Origin: Aphrocallistes beatrix
Lineage: Eukaryota; Porifera; Hexactinellida; Sceptrulophora; Aphrocallistidae
DNA: 64,000 nucleotides
Assembly: GCA_963281255.1 (NCBI GenBank)
Contig: OY725490.1
Location: forward strand, 6,696,001-6,760,000
Reading direction: 5' to 3'
A program made the translations under genes and the position numbers. Every line of letters begins with the position of its first letter. Positions within the stretch are counted from its first letter, which is position 1. The notes below the pieces were generated by a model. It saw only the letters and a list, made by a program, of their open reading frames with translations. It was not told where the DNA came from and did no database searches. This document shows positions 35,681-61,286 of the stretch, one piece after another.

Positions 35681-36522
35681 AAGGAATGGTGCATGACGGA
35701 CATTGATCCGAAATTTGTATTTGGTTCGAGTCGAACACGAAGAGTGACAAAAATTGGATTGCGATAACGAGAAGAAATTGTTTATGGTATGAATTCATTA
35801 GCAAATCAATATTATAATTAGTTAGACTCCGATGACGATAATGTGAGGGATTTAGGCTGTCTTGTAACTCCAGGATTTAATGCTAATTTGTATATTATGA
35901 CTTTATTTATAGTATTTCAGCAAAAAAAATATTTGAGCAAGATATCAACGTTTATGGAAATGGAGATTATTAAATGAGAAAAGGAAATTCCGAGATGAAT
36001 TCTATCTTAGAGAAATACTCGTATAATCAGTACACGAGTAGCGATCATCTATTCTCTTTCAATCATCTCAAAATCTTTGCCAAATGTTCATTATACGTTT
36101 GGTAGAAATTTTGTAGTGAGATATGATATAATGCTAAAATGTTAAAATATATTGAATGACTGTGAGGAATACATGGTTTAATACGAAAGAAATAGGATTG
36201 TGTATTATTTTGTGCTGCATCCAGCAACAAATGCTAACCATTGAACTGATTCATCTCACTTATGGATGTGGATGTGTACACTTTTCCTATGGTGTATTAT
36301 TCTTACCATCTTGTTCTTTCATTTATGCTTGTCCGCTGCACTATGCCACGTTGACTTTTATATTAACATTTTCTTTATACACGTGTTGATTATTCAACGT
36401 CATTGGATTGAGGAATTAGTTTCTTTACGCCCATATAGTATTTTCTTACTCAACCTCATATGCCTTCATCTAACAAGTTATTCGTACCGTTAGTTCTCAC
36501 CCTTGAATTAGTATATTCAATA
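35681..36522. other. Non-coding spacer before mitochondrial creatine kinase
   Basis: Small AT-rich ORFs here have no recognisable domain and are judged spurious. An acceptor-like AATTAG at 36506-36511 precedes the creatine kinase ATG by 11 bases, so 5' leader sequence may be spliced onto this site. Confidence 0.45.
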
Positions 36523-37749
36523 ATGGCATTCTTTGCTACAAACAAGAGATGGTTGGGAGCCGCGGTCGTGTCTGGGGTCGCGATTGCTGGGTACATGCTC
36601 ACAAGCGACGGACGGAATTCCATCAGAGCAGGAGCATCGGCTTATTCTCGCTTTCCCCCCTCAGCAGACTTCCCTGATCTCTCCAAGCACAGCAACCACA
36701 TGGCCAAAGTCCTCACACCTAAAATATACGCTAAGCTACGGGACAAACGCACCCCTAGCGGGTTCACCCTCGACAATGTCATCCAAACTGGAGTGGACAA
36801 CCCCGGACACCCCTTCATCATGACGGTGGGGTGTGTGGCTGGGGACGAAGAGAGCTATGAAACGTTCAAAGATCTCTTGGACCCAGTCATCTCGGATAGA
36901 CACGGGGGCTACGGGGCTGATGCTAAACACCCGACTGACCTCGACAGCAGTAAGATCAGAGGAGGACTGTTCGACGACAAGTATGTGCTGAGTTCCCGTG
37001 TGCGCACTGGACGCAGTATCCGCGGATTCGGTCTCCCGCCACATTGCACGCGCGCGGAAAGGAGAGAAGTGGAGAAGATCGTTTCAAGCGCGCTAGACAA
37101 CTTGGGCGGGGAACTGAAGGGTGTCTACTACCCTCTGAACGGAATGAGTGACCAGGAGCAGGAACAGCTGATCAATGATCACTTCCTCTTTGATAAACCG
37201 GTTTCCCCGCTCCTTCTGGCTTCCGGCATGGCGAGGGATTGGCCGGACGGGCGCGGAATTTGGCACAACAAGGAGAAGAATTTCTTGGTGTGGGTGAATG
37301 AAGAAGATCACACGCGAGTGATTTCCATGGAGAAAGGCGGAAATATAAAATCTGTCTTCGACCGGTTTTGTAACGGTTTGAAGCAGGTAGAAGACCTAAT
37401 GAAAAAAGATGGGAACGAGTTCATGTGGAATCAACACCTGGGATTCATTCTCACCTGTCCTTCCAACTTGGGGACAGGCTTGAGGGCTGGAGTCCATATA
37501 AAGATTCCTAAATTCAGCAAACACCCCAAGTTTGAGGAAGCTCTGAAGAAGATGCGGCTGCAGAAGAGAGGAACAGGGGGTGTGGACACGGCTGCTGTAG
37601 GGGGTACCTTTGATATCAGTAACTCTGACAGGCTGGGCCAATCTGAGGTTGAGTTGGTGCAGACTCTGATTGATGGAATTGACCGTATTGTCGAGATGGA
37701 GAAAGCCCTTGAGAAAGGACAGAGCATCGACAGCTTACTGCCAAAGTAA
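36523..37749 (+). CDS. CKMT1: Mitochondrial creatine kinase
   Basis: The 408-aa product aligns along its whole length with mitochondrial creatine kinase. It has a basic, hydrophobic presequence ([18 protein letters not shown]), the [19 protein letters not shown] start of the mature protein, [33 protein letters not shown] with both acidic catalytic residues, and [18 protein letters not shown] with the reactive Cys. The specificity loop is [11 protein letters not shown]. It transfers phosphate between ATP and creatine in the intermembrane space. The GVDTA loop and small-substrate loop pattern say creatine kinase, not arginine kinase. I chose the ATG at 36523; one at 36460 would put 21 hydrophobic residues before the presequence. 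It has no intron. Confidence 0.92.
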
Positions 37750-51004: not shown

Positions 51005-54000
51005 ATGGCCATTGACTTCCGATTTAAGAATTTACAAGCTAATTCGCAAATGTTTAACAGAAGACTTGACTTCGGTCAACATAGACATGTTTTTATCCCT
51101 CTGCCACCTCCTAACCATCCTGACTTGATGAAGAAATATAGCCATATTAAATTGAAATCTACGAAAGATGTGAGCCAGCTAACTGGCAAAATGGCAAACA
51201 AGCCATCTAAAGTGCTACAACCGAGGCGTGAACATTTTAAAAACGCTTCTGATCTTTTGTATAAAAGACCTAATGCTTTAGCCTCAAAAACTGAGAAAAT
51301 ATCTTCCGATTTATGCTCGGCAAGACTAGCCAGAGTCCATGATCTAACTAAGTTAAAATATCCTAAAACATCCGATAATACGGCGAGAGAGCATGAAGAG
51401 TTCAGAGCACTTGAAAATGTGATGAAAACCAAGAGACACGTTTCGAATCTTCAGAAAAAAGATGCAACCGAACGGATTAGTCGAATTTCACAACCCATTC
51501 AGAGAACGACGAATATTTTGAAAAGACCGAATGAACTTTCGCAAACTATTCCAACGGTCAATCGTCAAACATCAACAACAAACACCCACCTTTCTAACCC
51601 AAAGATATCATCAATTCTAGAGAAGCATTACAAGATCCCACAGATACAGGCTTTCACATGGGTGAAATATTCCATTCCAAAGCCCCCGCCGAACCTCGAA
51701 GAGGTGGAACGAAAACTGTACCCACATCGATTTAAGATAATAATTGAAGAAATTTCAACTTTCTTTCGTATCCCTACACCACCACCTCACATGCCTGAGT
51801 CAATGAAATTTCCCTTATTATCTCTGATCCCATCCCCTCCCCCTGATATCCCTGAGTACCTACTCACACAGCCTGAGTTGAGCAGTGTGAGAGTTAGAAC
51901 TAGCATTGTTCCTAACCCTATTAGAGGTCTCATCCCATCCCCTCCCCCTGATATCCCTGAGTACCTACTCACACAGCCTGAGGTGAGCAGTGTGAGAGTT
52001 AGAACTAGCATTGTTCCTAATCCTATTAGAGGTCTTATCCCATCCCCTCCCCCTGATATCCCTGAGTACCTACTCACACAGCCTGAGTTGAGCAGTGTGA
52101 GAGTTAGAACTAGCATTGTTCCTAACCCTATTAGAGGTCTCATCCCCTCCCCTCCCCCTGATATCCCTGAGTACCTACTCACACAGCCTGAGGTGAGCAG
52201 TGTGAGAGTTAGAACTAGCATTGTTCCTAATCCTATTAGAGGTCTTATCCCATCCCCTCCCCCTGATATCCCTGAGTACCTACTCACACAGCCTGAGTTG
52301 AGCAGTGTGAGAGTTAGAACTAGCATTGTTCCTAATCCTATTAGAGGTCTTATCCCATCCCCTCCCCCTGATATCCCTGACCTACTCACTGATCTGAGCA
52401 GTGTTAAACCTATCATTGCTCCTAACCCTATTAGAGGTCTCATCCCACCCCCTCCTCCTAATATCCCTGAGTCCCTACTCACTAAGTCAGGGTTCCCACC
52501 TCCACCTCCTGATATTCCACTGGACTCAGGTCCGATGCGCCTGATAAGCTTGCTGTCAGGCCGCACACTGAATTCTAAACTATCCTTAATCCCTCTTCCC
52601 CCGCCCGATATTTCTATTTTCCCCCCACCTCCGCCTCCGCTCGAGTTGTATCACAGTTTCTCTTCCTCTGACAGTTGGGATGAACCCCCAGTTGACCCTT
52701 CTGATTTCAGATCACTACACCTGCAGGAGATAGTTGATGCGGCTAAATTGAAGGAGAAGTTAGCTAAAGATAAGAAGAAACTAGCGAATTTTCGCATATT
52801 AAGTTTGCAAGAGATCATTAATGCAGAAAATGTTAAAGAGGCAGAAAGGAGAGCTAAGGATGCCGATGAAAAGAATTGGAGAAGTCCGAACTTTCGCCGA
52901 TTACATTTAGAAGAGTTAAAGAAGGCGTTTCTGAAAAGGGAAAAAGAGATGGTAATGAAATCTATTACAAAACTTGAACTTCAGCTTGCACAAGGTAAAC
53001 GAACAGGTCAGCCATCTACTCAACCAATTCTTCTCAATCTTCCCAACCTAAAGAAAGAGGAATATTATCATCGACTTTTATCTAAGCTTGGACTAGCTGA
53101 AAACGGGAATAAATACTCCGATAGTGCACAAGATCCTTCGAACCTGACTTTTAGAAGTAAGATCGAATTATTGAAGAAAGTTGAGACTGCAATATCAACT
53201 GGTAATCCGCCTGTTAATTCGCTTCTACCTCCTTCCTTATTGTCTATTCTACAAGTGCCGGGTTATCCAGATCTAAGCAAACATCATAGTCACATGTCAT
53301 GGCATTTAACTCCAGAGATTTACCGCTTACTTTCGAAGCGAGTGACGAAGTCTGGTTTCACATTCCATCAAGCCATTCAGGTTGGTATTGATAATCCAGG
53401 AGATACGGTTAACTTGACAGTAGGCTGCATTGCAGGTGATGAAGATTCATACTCTGAATTCGCGGAATTATTCGATTTGGTGATAGAAACCGTGCATAAT
53501 GGCTATTCAACTGACAAAGTACATTATTCTGATTTCGACCCTATTCACTTTTCAGATGGTTATTTTGACCCCAATTACGTGTTGTCTTGCCGAGTGCGCG
53601 CTGGTCGTAGCATTCGAGGGTTTCCCCTGCTGCCCCAGTGCACACGAGTGGAGCGGCGCAACGTGGAATCTATTGTGAAGTTGTGTCTTAATAACATGCC
53701 GCACCCTTTCAAAGGCGCCTATCATCCTCTCTCTACAATGTCAGTAGAGGAGCACAGACATCTTTCAAGTCAGAGTCTACTCTTTCACAAGCCTACCTCC
53801 CCATTGGTCACGTCCTCTAGGATGATTCGAGACTGGCCGGATGCGAGAGGTTTATGGGTGGATAGAGATAAATGTTTTTCTGCTTGGGTTAATGAGAAAG
53901 ATCACGTCAGGCTAATCTCTATGGCAGAAGGTGGAGATTTGGGTTCGGTTTTTGAGCGATTCTGTCTAGGCGTTCAGCTGTTTGAGATGGTGTTGAATCT

Positions 54001-54442
54001 TAGAGGCCATGAAGTTATGAAGAACGACCATCTCGGATATATTGTGACTTGTCCGTCAAATCTAGGAACTGGAATGAAGGTTAGTTTGCGTGTGAAGTTG
54101 CCAATAGTTTCAAGTCTACCTGAATTCCACACGATTATTCAATATCTCAATTTGGATAAGCGAGATACGTTAGAGCAAGGAATATTCGATATTTCGAACA
54201 GATATAACCTTGGCTACACAGAAGTTGGGCTAGTACAAGAAGTCATCCACTCGGTGCAGCTGCTGATCAGGCTAGAGCAAGGACTATGGTCTGGCTATGG
54301 CCTACTTGAGATTCTGAGAGAGAAGAAACCCGGTTTAGCTGACGTTCTTATCGCGGGAGTGTACCCTAGCAACCCATTGAAGAGGATGAAATGTGCTAGG
54401 AAATTGATTCCCGAACCTCCGCCCGATATGCCCCAGATATAA
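51005..54442 (+). CDS. Proline-repeat / creatine-kinase-like fusion protein
   Basis: This single ORF encodes 1,145 aa. Residues 1-270 are basic and unrecognised with PLPPPNHPDL-type motifs. Residues 275-480 are five near-identical 35-aa repeats (105 bp each) built on IPSPPPDIPEYLLTQPE, followed by degenerate copies. Residues 560-660 hold three charged FRxLxLqEi repeats. Residues 752-1115 are a complete phosphagen-kinase fold most like creatine kinase (CVAGDEDSY..., [19 protein letters not shown] with Cys1016). The domain looks catalytically impaired: NEEDH is NEKDH (Lys965), LRAGVH is MKVSLR, and the [10 protein letters not shown] loop is shortened by about six residues. The tail ends PEPPPDMPQI, so the proline motif brackets the protein. 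The next gene is the flagellar CFAP99, which hints at a ciliary role. Confidence 0.85.
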   Translation: MAIDFRFKNLQANSQMFNRRLDFGQHRHVFIPLPPPNHPDLMKKYSHIKLKSTKDVSQLTGKMANKPSKVLQPRREHFKNASDLLYKRPNALASKTEKISSDLCSARLARVHDLTKLKYPKTSDNTAREHEEFRALENVMKTKRHVSNLQKKDATERISRISQPIQRTTNILKRPNELSQTIPTVNRQTSTTNTHLSNPKISSILEKHYKIPQIQAFTWVKYSIPKPPPNLEEVERKLYPHRFKIIIEEISTFFRIPTPPPHMPESMKFPLLSLIPSPPPDIPEYLLTQPELSSVRVRTSIVPNPIRGLIPSPPPDIPEYLLTQPEVSSVRVRTSIVPNPIRGLIPSPPPDIPEYLLTQPELSSVRVRTSIVPNPIRGLIPSPPPDIPEYLLTQPEVSSVRVRTSIVPNPIRGLIPSPPPDIPEYLLTQPELSSVRVRTSIVPNPIRGLIPSPPPDIPDLLTDLSSVKPIIAPNPIRGLIPPPPPNIPESLLTKSGFPPPPPDIPLDSGPMRLISLLSGRTLNSKLSLIPLPPPDISIFPPPPPPLELYHSFSSSDSWDEPPVDPSDFRSLHLQEIVDAAKLKEKLAKDKKKLANFRILSLQEIINAENVKEAERRAKDADEKNWRSPNFRRLHLEELKKAFLKREKEMVMKSITKLELQLAQGKRTGQPSTQPILLNLPNLKKEEYYHRLLSKLGLAENGNKYSDSAQDPSNLTFRSKIELLKKVETAISTGNPPVNSLLPPSLLSILQVPGYPDLSKHHSHMSWHLTPEIYRLLSKRVTKSGFTFHQAIQVGIDNPGDTVNLTVGCIAGDEDSYSEFAELFDLVIETVHNGYSTDKVHYSDFDPIHFSDGYFDPNYVLSCRVRAGRSIRGFPLLPQCTRVERRNVESIVKLCLNNMPHPFKGAYHPLSTMSVEEHRHLSSQSLLFHKPTSPLVTSSRMIRDWPDARGLWVDRDKCFSAWVNEKDHVRLISMAEGGDLGSVFERFCLGVQLFEMVLNLRGHEVMKNDHLGYIVTCPSNLGTGMKVSLRVKLPIVSSLPEFHTIIQYLNLDKRDTLEQGIFDISNRYNLGYTEVGLVQEVIHSVQLLIRLEQGLWSGYGLLEILREKKPGLADVLIAGVYPSNPLKRMKCARKLIPEPPPDMPQI
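51827..52470 (+). repeat. In-frame 105-bp tandem repeats of the fusion gene
   Basis: Near-identical 105-bp units begin at 51827, 51932, 52037, 52142 and 52247, and a degenerate unit begins near 52352. Alternate units differ at the same few bases (for example GAGTTG and GAGGTG), suggesting that a two-unit block was duplicated. The array keeps frame throughout. Confidence 0.9.
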
Positions 54443-54718: not shown

Positions 54719-56623
54719 ATGTCATCACCCGAACAAACTCCTACACTACTCGGAACTCTGCTAAACCTGAATCGAGCTGTGAAAGAGGATCCGAGTAACA
54801 TTGAATCGCTCCAGGAACTCTTCCCTATCTATCCAGTGGTGCCCACTAAGACCGCACAGCTAGCCATAGAGTGTGCTCGAGGCTGTTTCCGATTCTCCAA
54901 AGTCCTCAACTCAACTGTCCACAACTTTTTCAATCACCCTTTCGGCGAGACTGCTTCAAGAAAAGACTCTTCACTATACCTTGCTATTACCTACATTGTT
55001 ATTTTTCAGTTTAGGAAAATTGGACTTGAGCAATTTACTGAAATTGTCGGATTGCAATCTACTCGAAATTTGTATTTTTTCCTTTCATACTTACTGGACA
55101 CAGATAACATTCAAACTTGGCTGTTTCAAGAATGGTGCAAGAGTTATGACACAGAATTTGTCATCAACAATATTCAAGATCCTCTCTTGAGTATTTCCGA
55201 GTTGATGCAGGATTACCTCCAAGAGCTGAATGACAAGATAGACAGTAGGAAAACCCCCAAGTTGCCTAATAAACCGAAAATTCCCTCCACACAAGTAGCT
55301 CCATTCAATCTATCCGAACCTAAGCCAAAGCCGAAACCAGAATTAGAGGAGATAATTCTGAAACAGCACTACAAACCAGTGGACCCCAAGCTGTACCAGC
55401 AGCCAGAGGAGCTGGCTCAGATCGAGAGGGCAAAGGAGGCGAATAAGAAATGCGCAGACCAGAAATTAAACGATGCACAGAAGAGTAAGCCTCGGTGCGC
55501 TACAGGGGAGAAGTCTGACAAGACGAAGGCGAGGATACAGGAGATTGCGGATGAGAGAGATGGCGCGTTCAAGGAATCGAGGACGCGTAAGGCTAAGCCT
55601 TTCGTAGCCTCAAAGCTGGATGATAACCTGGTTGTGAAGAAAAACGCTGCCAGCATCCTCCGAGAGGGACTGCTGTTCCAGAAGGAGGAACAGAAGAAGA
55701 TTCAGGAACTGCTCGATCTAGAAGCGGGGGGTAAGGATGCGAGTGAGTATTTCCGCTGGCAGGAGAATGTGCTGCAAGAGCAGCTGGAAGCGGAGCAGTT
55801 CGAAGTTGAGAAGAAACACTTGATGGGGAGACTGACCTACGAAGAGGCTATCATTGCGAAGCAGAAACTGAGCGAGGATAACAAGGTGTTAGTGGAGCAG
55901 TTGAAGGAAGAGAGACAGGCGCTACTGGATGAGTACTTCAGAGAGAGGGAAGAAGAGAAGAGGCATATGCAGAGGCTGGTTGAGGAGATAGCTGCTGGAA
56001 AGGAAAACGCAAAGTTAGCTCAAGAGAAACTGAAAGAGATGAAGAAAAAGATAGTCGAGGAGATGTCAAGGGAGAATCGAGCTCTGATGCAAGCAGCTAT
56101 AGAGATGGCGCAAGCGGAGATGGAGAAGAAGATGGAGATGATTCAGCAGATCCGGGCGATGGAGCGAGTGCCCATCATACGCGTTAAGTTTGTGGACATG
56201 ACAGAGACAGGTGGGCATGGGCTGCTCTCTGAGATGTCTATTGCGGAACTGAATGAGCGAGTTAACCTGATGAAAACCGCAGTTCAAGAAGAGGAGGAGC
56301 AGAGGAGGGTAGAGATCATTCAGGGGAAGAAGGAGCGCCACGAGTTATTAGAGTCTACGATGGAGTTCATCAAAGAAGCTCGATCTAACCAGACTCGAGA
56401 GAAAAGCAGAACGATCCCTTCTACCAAGCAGGCGAGTAAGAAAGCTAAGGAAAGCCTGGAAGTTTTAGCACTGAGGGAGAAACTGCTGGCTCGACAGAAT
56501 CTGCGAAAAGAGAAAACGAAAGAAAGGATATTATCACCCAAGCAAAGTTCTAATAAGAAAGCCAATGTCAATCATTCGAATGCCAAACTAACTTTAAATT
56601 CCTCAGTACTCGCCAGTCTCTAA
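54719..56623 (+). CDS. CFAP99: Cilia- and flagella-associated protein 99
   Basis: The 634-aa product has an N-terminal helical domain (HPFGETASRKDSSLYLAITY, FLSYLLDTDN) and then a long charged coiled coil. It contains the CFAP99 blocks KKNAASILREGLLFQ and EYFRWQENVLQEQL with KKHLMGRLTYEEAIIAKQ. CFAP99 is an axonemal protein of motile cilia and sperm flagella. It is a single exon with the ATG at 54719; an acceptor-like ATACTAG ends one base before that ATG. It sits 276 bp after the creatine-kinase fusion on the same strand. Confidence 0.85.
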   Translation: MSSPEQTPTLLGTLLNLNRAVKEDPSNIESLQELFPIYPVVPTKTAQLAIECARGCFRFSKVLNSTVHNFFNHPFGETASRKDSSLYLAITYIVIFQFRKIGLEQFTEIVGLQSTRNLYFFLSYLLDTDNIQTWLFQEWCKSYDTEFVINNIQDPLLSISELMQDYLQELNDKIDSRKTPKLPNKPKIPSTQVAPFNLSEPKPKPKPELEEIILKQHYKPVDPKLYQQPEELAQIERAKEANKKCADQKLNDAQKSKPRCATGEKSDKTKARIQEIADERDGAFKESRTRKAKPFVASKLDDNLVVKKNAASILREGLLFQKEEQKKIQELLDLEAGGKDASEYFRWQENVLQEQLEAEQFEVEKKHLMGRLTYEEAIIAKQKLSEDNKVLVEQLKEERQALLDEYFREREEEKRHMQRLVEEIAAGKENAKLAQEKLKEMKKKIVEEMSRENRALMQAAIEMAQAEMEKKMEMIQQIRAMERVPIIRVKFVDMTETGGHGLLSEMSIAELNERVNLMKTAVQEEEEQRRVEIIQGKKERHELLESTMEFIKEARSNQTREKSRTIPSTKQASKKAKESLEVLALREKLLARQNLRKEKTKERILSPKQSSNKKANVNHSNAKLTLNSSVLASL

Positions 56624-57699: not shown

Positions 57700-60600
57700 A
57701 TGGCTGTAGTCTGGACAGTGATCGCTGTGACAGCTCCCACCCGCGACAGTGCTTTCGCCTTCCAGAATGAACTTCTGATCCGCCAGAAGAAAGGTATCAT
57801 AAACCGCGAGACTGCCATCATTACAGTGGACGATCCGAAGCCTCGGATCGGATCTGGATCGGCGACCCTCAACGCGCTACTTATCGTTTCAGAGCTTCTC
57901 TCCTCTCGAGCTGGATTCAAGATCGTGAGTACGGAGGTGTTCCAAAAGGCGCGCGTTCTAATCTTGCACGCGGGGAGATTATTCCCGTTTTCGTCCTGCG
58001 GTCGAGCCTTTTCTACCCTCCCCCTCAAGCACCCCCGCCCGGGTGCTCCTAACCTACTCTCAGATTACTTCGAACTTCCCTGCGAGATCGATCAGCTGAT
58101 GAGTTTCTTGCACACACAGCTCTGTCCTAACACGGGCCCAGGCGTGTGGGTGTGTTCCACTGACATGATCCTGAACATGCCTGAAGAGAAGCTAGCGATC
58201 AACCTTGGAGACATGACTGGAGTAAAGTTATTTGCTACTAGGGCGAATCCCGGCTATGCTAAAGACCACGGGGTATGTCTAATTTACATATATTGACTTT
58301 ACTATGGATAAATTGTTTTATTATTTTGATATGCTTTTAGGTTTGCAAGCTTTCCAGTGATTTCAGCCAAGTTGAAGATATCCTATTTCAAGCAGAGGAC
58401 CTGAAGAGATGTCTATTGGAAGATGGAACTGTCCCTATTTTGGCTGGTATCGTGTTTCTCCCGTCTCAGTTCGTGGATAAACTCGTCTCGCTCCACTCGG
58501 CCCCTCCTCTGGACGCCTGCACCTACGTCGGTCTGGACAGTGGAGCCCCGCCTCTCTCCATCTCTCTCTTCTTCGACATTCTCAGATGCATGGCTACAGA
58601 TGTGAAGCAGGATGATTTCATCGATACGTGAGAGAATTTACACTCTAGTATGCATTTAGGAATGAATGATGGTCATTATAATCTGCTTATTCTTAGTCCG
58701 ATGAAGAACAAATTCGAGTTCGATGCAAATCCGCTGTCAGAGCTGACGATGAAGCGCGCGCGATCCATTCTCTGGNNNNNNNNNNNNNNNNNNNNNNNNN
58801 NNNNNNNNNNNNNNNNNNNNNNNNNNNNNNNNNNNNNNNNNNNNNNNNNNNNNNNNNNNNNNNNNNNNNNNNNNNNNNNNNNNNNNNNNNNNNNNNNNNN
58901 NNNNNNNNNNNNNNNNNNNNNNNNNNNNNNNNNNNNNNNNNNNNNNNNNNNNNNNNNNNNNNNNNNNNNNNNNNNTTAGGCAATTTAGCGTAGAATTGTC
59001 ATGCATGGTTTGTGTACTCTCATTGAATATGCGTGTTTGATTGTGGTTATTTTTTGTAGAGAAGATCCGTTTAACTCTCCAGTCGCTTCTAGCAATGCAT
59101 TTCAAGACTGCATCCTGATTAACAGCCGTATCGAAGGACAGGTGTCGATAGGGGAGGGCTCTATGATCCTTCATTCCCATCTGGAAGGTAACCGCTACTT
59201 CGGGAAGCGGAACATTTTGATTGAGGTGGACTCTACTCTATTCGAGTCAGCTGGAAGTCCTTTCGGGAGTTCGAGTTCTGTCGTGTTTCCTGACGACATT
59301 GTCTTGCAGCAGTTCATGGTGAAGTTTTCTTCTCCTAAGAACCTGAATCCCCTCAGTTCGTCCGTCCTAGCTGCATTCGGCACTGACGACAACCTCATCC
59401 TCTCTCTCTCTGAGCCCCGCGCTACCTACCTGAACAAACCCTGGGAGGAGTTCTTCTCACGCACCGGTGTAAAGTCAGGCGACCTGTGGGCGGCGGATGC
59501 GGAAGAGGGAAATAAGACCCTCCTCAAGGCCAAACTCTTTCCGGTTTCCCTACTCGAAGGGGAGTCTATTCTTTCCTATGTGACTTGGTTAGTAGGTGTG
59601 AATGGTCGCGAAATGGTTGGGAAGTGGCGCGAGCAGTGGCGCATGTCGATGGAGCAGATACTGAGACATATCAACTATGGTAAGACGATGGAATGCAGGC
59701 GTAATCTCACATTCCAAATCGGCTTGGAGGAGATGAGTGAGGCACTTGTGAGTGGAAAGCCACTCTGCATTCTCTCTTTTCTAAGCGGTGCCTTCCATGA
59801 AGGGAGACAGTTGGAGGTGTTAGATCGTTTGGATGAGGTGGCCTCCTCGTTGAATAACATCGTGATCCTGTGTCGCGTCTTCTCCTGCATTGCTGACATG
59901 CTGGGGATCATGGCAGAGGATGCAGGGGGGGTGAGGGGGGGACCAGCTGCGAATGTGTTCTGGAACCACGCCTTGTCGCTCCTGGAGCAGGGCAAGTTTA
60001 GGAGTGCGGTGAGGGAGTTGGCCAAGGAACGGAATGACTGGTTAGATCGACATGACAGGATCCTACGCGCTTCAAGACATTACGAGAGGGCTGCACAGAT
60101 CCTGACGAGCATCAGCGTACTGTCTGTGAAAGAATTTATTAAAGGCAGTCCTTGTAACCCTATTCCGATAGGGAAAACCCTCAAGGTAACCTGTGCGTCT
60201 AGGATTGATTGGGCGGGAGCTTGGAGTGACACGCCACCTATCACCTATGAGATCGGAGGAGCAGTGCTAGATTTCGCGATCGAGATTGAGGGTCGGAAGC
60301 CGATTGTTGTGTATGTGAAGAGAATTCCTCAATTTCAGCTGGAGCTGGTTGAAGGGGATGGAGAAAGTGAGAAGGAGATTATTTGTACCGAGTTGAAGGA
60401 AATATCGGATTATAACCAACCACATGCATTTGGGAGTCTTTTGAAGGCGTGTTTCATATCTGCAGGCATCCTTGAATACCCTTCCACACGCTCCCTAGCT
60501 CAGCAGCTGGAGAAGAGTACCGGAAGTGGGATTCGAGTGGTCTCGGTCTCGTATTTGCCTCATGGGTCCGGGCTTGGGACGAGCTCCATCCTAGCTGGGG

Positions 60601-61286
60601 CTATTTTATCTGGAATTTGGCGCGTAACCGGTATCATCCATGATAACCTGTCTCTCTCACATGCCGTGTTAAGTCTGGAGCAGCTGTTAACCACTGGCGG
60701 TGGCTGGCAGGATCAATGTGGCGGTATTTTTCCAGGCGCGAAACTCTCGACCACTCCGAAAGGCCTTCCCCTTAAAATCTCGGTGGAACCCATTCCCCTC
60801 TCCGATGAAACCATAGATAAGTTCAACAGACACTTCGTATTGGTGTACACGGGTAAAACACGGCTGGCGAGGAATGTGCTGCAGGATGTGTTGCGCAACT
60901 GGCACGCACGCCTACCGGAAATTGTCCTCAACGTGAACGACATTGCTCTGAACGGACGGACTTCCGCCGAAGCTCTGCGTAAAGGTGACTTCGTGAAGTT
61001 GGGTCAGTGTCTCACTCAGTCCATGCAGCATAAACTGATGATGGCGCCCGGCTCTTTACCGTTTCGAGTACAGCTGTTTATCGACAAAGTTAGAGAGGAA
61101 CTCTTGGGGTATCAGCTGGCGGGCGCAGGCGGGGGTGGGTTTTTGATTCTGCTTACGAAGGAGCCGAATCAGCAGGAGAGAATGCAGAAAGTTGTCGAAA
61201 GTATTCCGGAAATGACAGGTGGGAGGGTGTATCCTGCTAAGTACTCCAGATCCGGACTTGAGTACGAAACGCTTTATTCATCTTGA
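57700..61286 (+). CDS. FCSK: L-fucose kinase (FCSK), interrupted by an assembly gap
   Basis: Visible exons are 57700-58272, 58341-58627, 58697-58775 (runs into the gap) and 59060-61286. The N-terminal half is the fucose pyrophosphorylase-like domain (VGLDSGAPPLSISLFFDILRCM, GVWVCSTDMIL, with left-handed-helix SRIEGQVSIGEGS). The C-terminal half is a GHMP kinase with YLPHGSGLGTSSILAG as ATP loop, TTGGGWQDQCGG and GAGGGGF. FCSK phosphorylates free L-fucose to fucose-1-phosphate in the salvage route to GDP-fucose. It resembles animal FCSK more than the bacterial or plant bifunctional FKP, though the architecture is shared. The exon 3 end and the start of any exon in the gap are unknown. Confidence 0.93.
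58776..58975. other. Assembly gap (200 N)
   Basis: Exactly 200 N, a common placeholder size, lie within fucokinase. The sequence on the right resumes in intron-like DNA before an acceptor at 59058-59059. True size and missing exon sequence are unknown. Confidence 0.99.

Follow-up and report, generated by a model that had tools for sequence, protein, structure and literature searches.

Flagellar creatine kinase (CK) is a multi-domain, myristoylated enzyme. The phosphagen kinase TbAK1 of T. brucei is targeted to the flagellum by an N-terminal extension of 22 residues and is part of a working phosphoarginine system (PMC3679164). Outside this family, the actin acetyltransferase NAA80 is reported as an active enzyme of another fold with three FH1-like, profilin-binding stretches in an internal loop, and the FH1 core IPPPPPL of the formin mDia1 binds profilin 2a, with Ile and Leu as anchors (PMC7864067). 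Here we describe a gene of the hexactinellid sponge Aphrocallistes beatrix that shares with flagellar CK a CK domain plus extra sequence, with TbAK1 a phosphagen kinase that may be positioned in the cell by its N-terminal extension, and with NAA80 an enzyme fold joined to a putative FH1-like region. The gene occupies 51005-54442 on the forward strand of a 64,000-nucleotide stretch of contig OY725490.1 (assembly GCA_963281255.1, positions 6,696,001 to 6,760,000; hereafter the window) and encodes, in a single open reading frame (ORF), a protein of 1145 residues in which an arm of about 750 residues precedes a CK fold whose active site is disrupted.

The creatine kinase domain and its active site

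The CK part spans residues 752-1110 (53258-54334) and contains both phosphagen-kinase domains of Pfam in order (PF02807 and PF00217, residues 758-828 and 887-1092). It matches rabbit CK with an E-value of 1.2e-104, and its structure is predicted with a pLDDT (predicted local distance difference test) of 88 and superimposes on a human CK with 1.5 Å over 357 residues; all 50 matches listed in the structure comparison of the model are phosphagen kinases. The complete fold behind a long arm, as claimed in an earlier note made from the sequence alone, is thereby confirmed within one frame. By descent, as judged from the ordered Pfam domains and its clade membership, the gene belongs to the creatine/phosphagen kinase family, and the identity to rabbit CK and to the genome's other CKs amounts to 47-51%.

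For the active site, with residues numbered as in rabbit CK (Met counted), we compared the domain with its paralogues and with a set of bacterial kinases, namely the best 80 of 120 relatives from 195 stretches, all in bacterial records; the structure alignment covered 16 of these 80 loci and two sequences of the window. At position 232, Lys has replaced the Glu of the paralogues and of 79 of the 80 bacterial kinases, turning NEEDH into NEKDH; conservation at this site and in the DWP stretch is partly by construction, since both regions (for the former, positions 227-234, with either E or K accepted at 232) were part of the search patterns used for recruitment. The equivalent residue of human uMtCK is reported as the catalytic base, and against 664 units/mg the replacements E227D and E227S left 2.6 and 3.3 units/mg, with no activity detected for E227A (PMC5133464). 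Five further changes lie outside the recruiting patterns: Lys at 292 (Arg in 80/80 bacterial kinases and in the genome's other phosphagen kinases), Arg at 296 (His in 76/80), Asp at 321 (Gly in 78/80), Asn at 341 (Arg in 76/80) and Ser at 356 (Gly in 75/80). Besides, Ser is found at 191 (His in 41/80 and in every paralogue) and Asp at 66, where His occurs only in the CKs, and G324, present in 78/80, falls within a shortened substrate loop. This loop reads KR-DTLEQGI-FDIS and is six residues shorter than in the CK encoded at 36439-37749 of the window, and the LRAGVH of CKs reads MKVSLR. According to a review, R132, R236, R292 and R341 are catalytically important and the loops 59-72 and 319-333 act as a moving gate (PMC12467219). 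Altogether, five CK domains share 163 invariant positions, and 44 of these are altered here. The sites H66, I69, V325 and D326, which we take to determine substrate specificity, read D, N, gap and gap.

Because of E232K, the changes of R292, H296, G321 and R341 and the substrate loop shortened by six residues, the domain is very probably a pseudoenzyme. What it has in common with CK is the complete fold, the reactive Cys283 and most phosphate-binding Arg, and both CPSNLGTG and RxGRSIRG are retained; what sets it apart, besides the arm, is the absence of catalytic Glu232, of ATP-binding Arg292 and of the specificity-loop residues of a working CK. The two retained motifs, the Lys in NEKDH, the change to MKVSLR and the loss of about six loop residues had been described in the earlier note and were all seen again on the alignment, and alignment and structure prediction together support the pseudoenzyme interpretation of the earlier note. 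Binding of phosphate by the domain is possible, whereas catalysis at a useful rate is unlikely. The retention of S128, R130, R132, R135, R215, W228, E231, D233, H234, R236, C283, R320 and D335 would fit a protein that has remained enzymatic, acting on another substrate or at a very low rate. However, with Lys for the catalytic base, R292, H296 and R341 altered and part of the loop gone, and given the small remainder left even by E227S in uMtCK, we regard this as very improbable.

Evidence for a single coding gene

The frame starts with the ATG at 51005, two codons behind an in-frame TGA, and runs through 1145 codons without internal stop to the TAA ending at 54442. At the base composition of the window, the probability that a random stretch of 391 codons (approximately the CK part) contains no stop is about 2e-11. 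From four paralogous CK domains, the sequence differs by 0.43-0.47, 0.27-0.30 and 0.61-0.72 at codon positions 1, 2 and 3, respectively, a pattern that indicates constraint on second positions, as in selected coding sequence. Codon usage adds little to this: all parts of the ORF score below the 11 neighbouring genes tested, save one or two, and a frame other than the open one scores slightly higher for residues 1-225, as does one on the reverse strand for the repeat part. That the gene is coding is argued by its uninterrupted frame, the fold, the repeats and the motif in the tail.

This tail comprises 35 residues (54335-54439), mostly modelled with a pLDDT below 50, and closes with IPEPPPDMP at residue 1135 (54407-54433), the protein ending in ...LIPEPPPDMPQI. 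Since the motif of the arm thus reappears behind the CK fold, arm and CK domain are very likely parts of one protein. Two separate genes, or a decaying pseudogene left open by chance, would be in line with the long branch of the domain (1.1-1.9 versus 0.2-0.4 for the other CKs) and with the lower codon-usage score; against the low probability of a chance stop-free frame, the constrained second positions, the confidently predicted fold and the motif on the far side of the CK domain, such an explanation is hardly credible.

The proline-rich arm

Residues 1-225 (51005-51679) form a basic region with a net charge of +24 and carry the first motif copy, IPLPPPNHP, at residue 31. An array of proline motifs follows at residues 226-546 (51680-52642), in which a tandem repeat with a unit of 105 bp (35 residues) extends over 6.4 copies with 91% matches (51823-52482). 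The variable codons of the five full copies comprise three synonymous and one conservative (Leu/Val) change, and at the latter site the copies alternate Leu/Val/Leu/Val/Leu, which suggests a recent higher-order duplication of 70 residues; the length of the repeat may differ among individuals. Two FPPPPP stretches (residues 497 and 539) and IPLPPPDIS at residue 529 lie at 52493-52645, the former resembling, by our assumption, Ena/VASP EVH1 ligands.

Residues 568-655 (52706-52969) are charged, presumably helical and contain three FRxLxLxE repeats. As candidate WH2 actin-binding motifs these were ruled out, with zero WH2 matches up to an E-value of 10, and the search against PDB gave just an E-value of 0.81 to an unrelated chain. 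On the full protein, Pfam reported the two CK domains alone and no FH2, WH1 or WH2 domain. Searched on its own, the arm had no second copy in the genome (next match E 1.57) and a best PDB match of only E 0.47.

The proline motif in the genome and its link to actin regulators

The motif I-P-x-P-P-P-[D/N/H]-[I/L/M/F]-P was converted into a degenerate DNA pattern and searched in the whole assembly (100.5 Mb, 28 contigs), where 50 exact sites were found, versus 0 for the reversed pattern. Nine belong to the CK-fusion gene (13 copies by a relaxed definition). The remaining 41 are distributed over 35 open fragments, which belong to 33 loci, and none of the other motif ORFs examined has more than three strict copies. 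The sites use different codons, so that the conserved word is one of protein rather than a mobile repeat. The loci are not independent, because several are mutual paralogues (e.g. L121/L123, L141/L145 and L128/L129), and two pairs are near-identical duplicates (L136/L140 on C18/C1 and L125/L142 on C11/C1).

Actin-regulator domains are carried or adjoined by 17 of these 33 loci. This count combines genome searches for FH2, WH1 and WH2, which alone could catch other exons, with Pfam on the motif-bearing fragment, covering 29 of the 35 (all but L127, L135, L140, L142 and two of the three in L134; L140 and L142 are near copies of L136 and L125). Eight of the 17 are formins. Three have a same-strand WH1 match nearby (that of L127, 4.2 kb off, is a candidate for the same gene), and three have a WH2 match (L126 above the cut-off, L119 below it, and L146 with a match 1.9 kb upstream, again a candidate for the same gene). 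The remainder are an ABI with Abi_HHR and SH3 domains, a SAM+SH3 protein labelled EPS8-like, and the C-terminal part of WASH complex subunit 7 (L118 2395-2718, C4; WASH-7_C, E 1.3e-8), whose product ends with the motif (ARIPAPPPDIPI) and so resembles the end of the CK-fusion protein; the names WASP, EPS8 and ABI are labels drawn from Pfam domains.

In the genome's formins, this motif is that of the FH1 region. Searching the genome for FH2 gave 16 matches, grouped into nine formin genes, eight of which have the strict motif on the same strand, at distances of less than 0.1 to about 1.7 kb ahead of the first FH2 match; one reads ...IPQPPPNMPG...IPVPPPSMPG...IPRPPPNMPG...IPNPPPNIPG. The ninth shows the variants CPSPPPNLP and IPAPPLDIP in the region upstream of FH2. 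To control for mere richness in proline, a looser pattern that omits the [D/N/H]-[hydrophobic] pair was searched and had 86 sites (8 when reversed). Outside the CK-fusion gene, an FH2 or WH1 match occurs no more than 6 kb from 15 of 41 strict but only 2 of 35 loose-only sites (p 0.001), or, counted by locus, from 11 of 33 versus 1 of 32 (p 0.0016). The arm shares with formins and other actin regulators an array of Ile-anchored polyproline motifs, in the same form as upstream of FH2, and differs from them by the absence of FH2, WH1 and WH2, by its 35-residue spacing and by its nine strict copies. We consider it FH1-like, and its sequence points to actin rather than to flagella.

As in the mDia1 core, Ile is followed at some distance by another hydrophobic residue in the genome's motif, but the two are separated by one additional residue. 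Two clear profilins (C2:867194 and C11:4298755) and one marginal match were found in the genome, and the profilin on C2 retains the N-terminal Trp and Tyr, which are reported among the profilin contact residues (PMC7864067).

Among the motif hits, a "WWP" family (L117, L125, L134, L142, L149) is represented by seven copies on four contigs. Its short ORFs read WWP...DP..M.K.EL followed by an IPAPPPDIP-type motif, and show a weak, sub-cut-off Pfam similarity to a YDR124W-like helical domain.

Other phosphagen kinases and the origin of the domain

A PF00217 search of the whole assembly gave seven matches: the inactive-looking domain, the CK at 36439, a single-domain CK on C6, two CK domains on C12, an arginine-kinase-like gene on C11 and a fragment on C1. 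The four CK domains in the three other genes keep every catalytic residue checked, so the fusion gene is not the sole CK of the organism. One of these, the separate gene at 36439-37749 (forward strand, 13.3 kb upstream), had been presumed active and mitochondrial in the earlier note, which proposed it as a local comparison; by Pfam and alignment it is a CK with intact catalytic residues. The gene on C12 (L002 322-2634) encodes 770 residues with all checked catalytic residues in both CK domains. Its start, MGCGSS, may be a myristoylation signal as in flagellar CK, and the gene is likely the flagellar-CK relative of this genome, with two rather than three domains. The short C1 fragment (L007 1501-1623) contains a stop and is a probable pseudogene remnant. 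On C11, the arginine-kinase-like gene (L006) has a motif-bearing ORF (L124 2259-2954) at a distance of about 2 kb and on its own strand.

Descent of the domain from the CK at 36439-37749 is disfavoured, as their pairing as sisters gave p 0.019 in the approximately unbiased test. In the best small tree the domain groups with the two C12 domains (support 69/66, not significant), and placement with the cytosolic CK on C6 or basal to all gave p 0.27 each; given the long branch, these three positions cannot be told apart with trees that took in 15 and 5 of the 80 bacterial loci. Viral contigs yielded 2 pattern-matching stretches in the whole-protein search and 39 stretches in the CK-alignment search, with zero relatives in both.

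The residues R148, R152, D210 and W211, which we take to be CK dimer contacts (Met-counted numbering), are all retained in the fusion protein. Together with the four intact-looking CK domains available as partners, this would suit a regulatory subunit that heterodimerises with active CKs and brings them to places marked by the arm. With only 48-51% identity to the possible partners, and with homodimers fitting the same residues as well, we judge this role unlikely, although it is the least improbable of the alternatives considered.

The neighbouring CFAP99 gene

Downstream, at 54719-56623 on the forward strand, lies a separate gene for CFAP99 (E 4e-75 to PDB 9ijj and E 8e-55 to FAP99 of PDB 7n6g). 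In the central apparatus, CFAP99 is counted with the proteins that lie on the outside of the C1 microtubule (PMC9113940). The earlier note had proposed a structural or scaffolding role, perhaps in flagella in view of this neighbour. On such a reading, the arm would tether the domain to the axoneme within the flagellar energy supply. The neighbour is real, flagellar phosphagen kinases such as TbAK1 exist, the genome has the two-domain CK with its MGCGSS start, and the best small tree places the domain beside it, if not significantly. Against this, the motif of the arm is common to formins and to WH1, WH2, ABI and WASH-complex loci, the 49 PDB sequences matched by a profile of the CK alignment all bear names of phosphagen or protein-arginine kinases, with no axonemal protein among them, and adjacency of a single gene is weak evidence. 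A scaffolding role is plausible. Its flagellar part is unsupported; we consider a flagellar scaffold improbable and rate it well below an actin-related one.

Further downstream, one ORF (58989-61286) joins a fucose pyrophosphorylase domain to GHMP kinase domains behind it, so that two steps of GDP-fucose salvage are probably combined in one protein. Part of a 200-base run of N at about 58.9-59.0 kb lies in this ORF, on the other strand's reading.

Discussion

The combination of a CK domain that is very probably inactive with an FH1-like arm suggests that an old energy enzyme has been converted into a scaffold for actin assembly. We give about an even chance to the view that the gene product is a multivalent scaffold of this kind. 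The motifs of the arm would bind profilin, and hence profilin-actin, many at once, or might be read by an EVH1, SH3 or WW domain shared by the motif-bearing actin regulators. The CK fold would no longer transfer phosphate and might instead serve as a folded module for dimerisation or docking, and a dimer would display about 26 motifs. The weakest and most speculative step is that this hub pairs with a live CK and keeps ATP regeneration at sites of actin growth. Such a coupling, in which the arm loads many profilin-actin complexes and the inactive CK, by pairing with an active one, links phosphocreatine-driven recharging of ATP to filament growth, is improbable. For CK-B, accumulation in membrane ruffles and a contribution to cell motility are reported (PMC2659440).

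Several points weigh against a function in actin assembly. In sixteen of the 33 motif loci no actin domain was found, with Pfam covering just the motif-bearing fragment (29 of 35); among them are a mitochondrial-fission-regulator-like gene, an IBR-domain gene, UBA-like genes and the "WWP" family, and the motif may thus have a broader reader. Binding to profilin is not assured, because of the extra residue before the second anchor in comparison to mDia1, and no actin-binding domain was found in the protein itself, the helical FRxLxLxE repeats giving no match to WH2. The actin connection was spotted once the hits had been seen, the 6-kb limit was our own choice, and the adjoining CFAP99 allows for a ciliary role.

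In titles and abstract openings of open-licence PubMed Central papers, we saw neither an inactive CK acting as a scaffold nor one fused to an FH1-like region. If the actin scaffold is confirmed, the gene would represent a phosphagen-kinase pseudoenzyme recruited to the cytoskeleton and would connect the creatine kinase system with actin assembly at the level of sequence, a connection for which there is earlier support such as CK-B in ruffles. The genome-wide motif is, in addition, a ready probe of a proline code common to the actin regulators of one animal.

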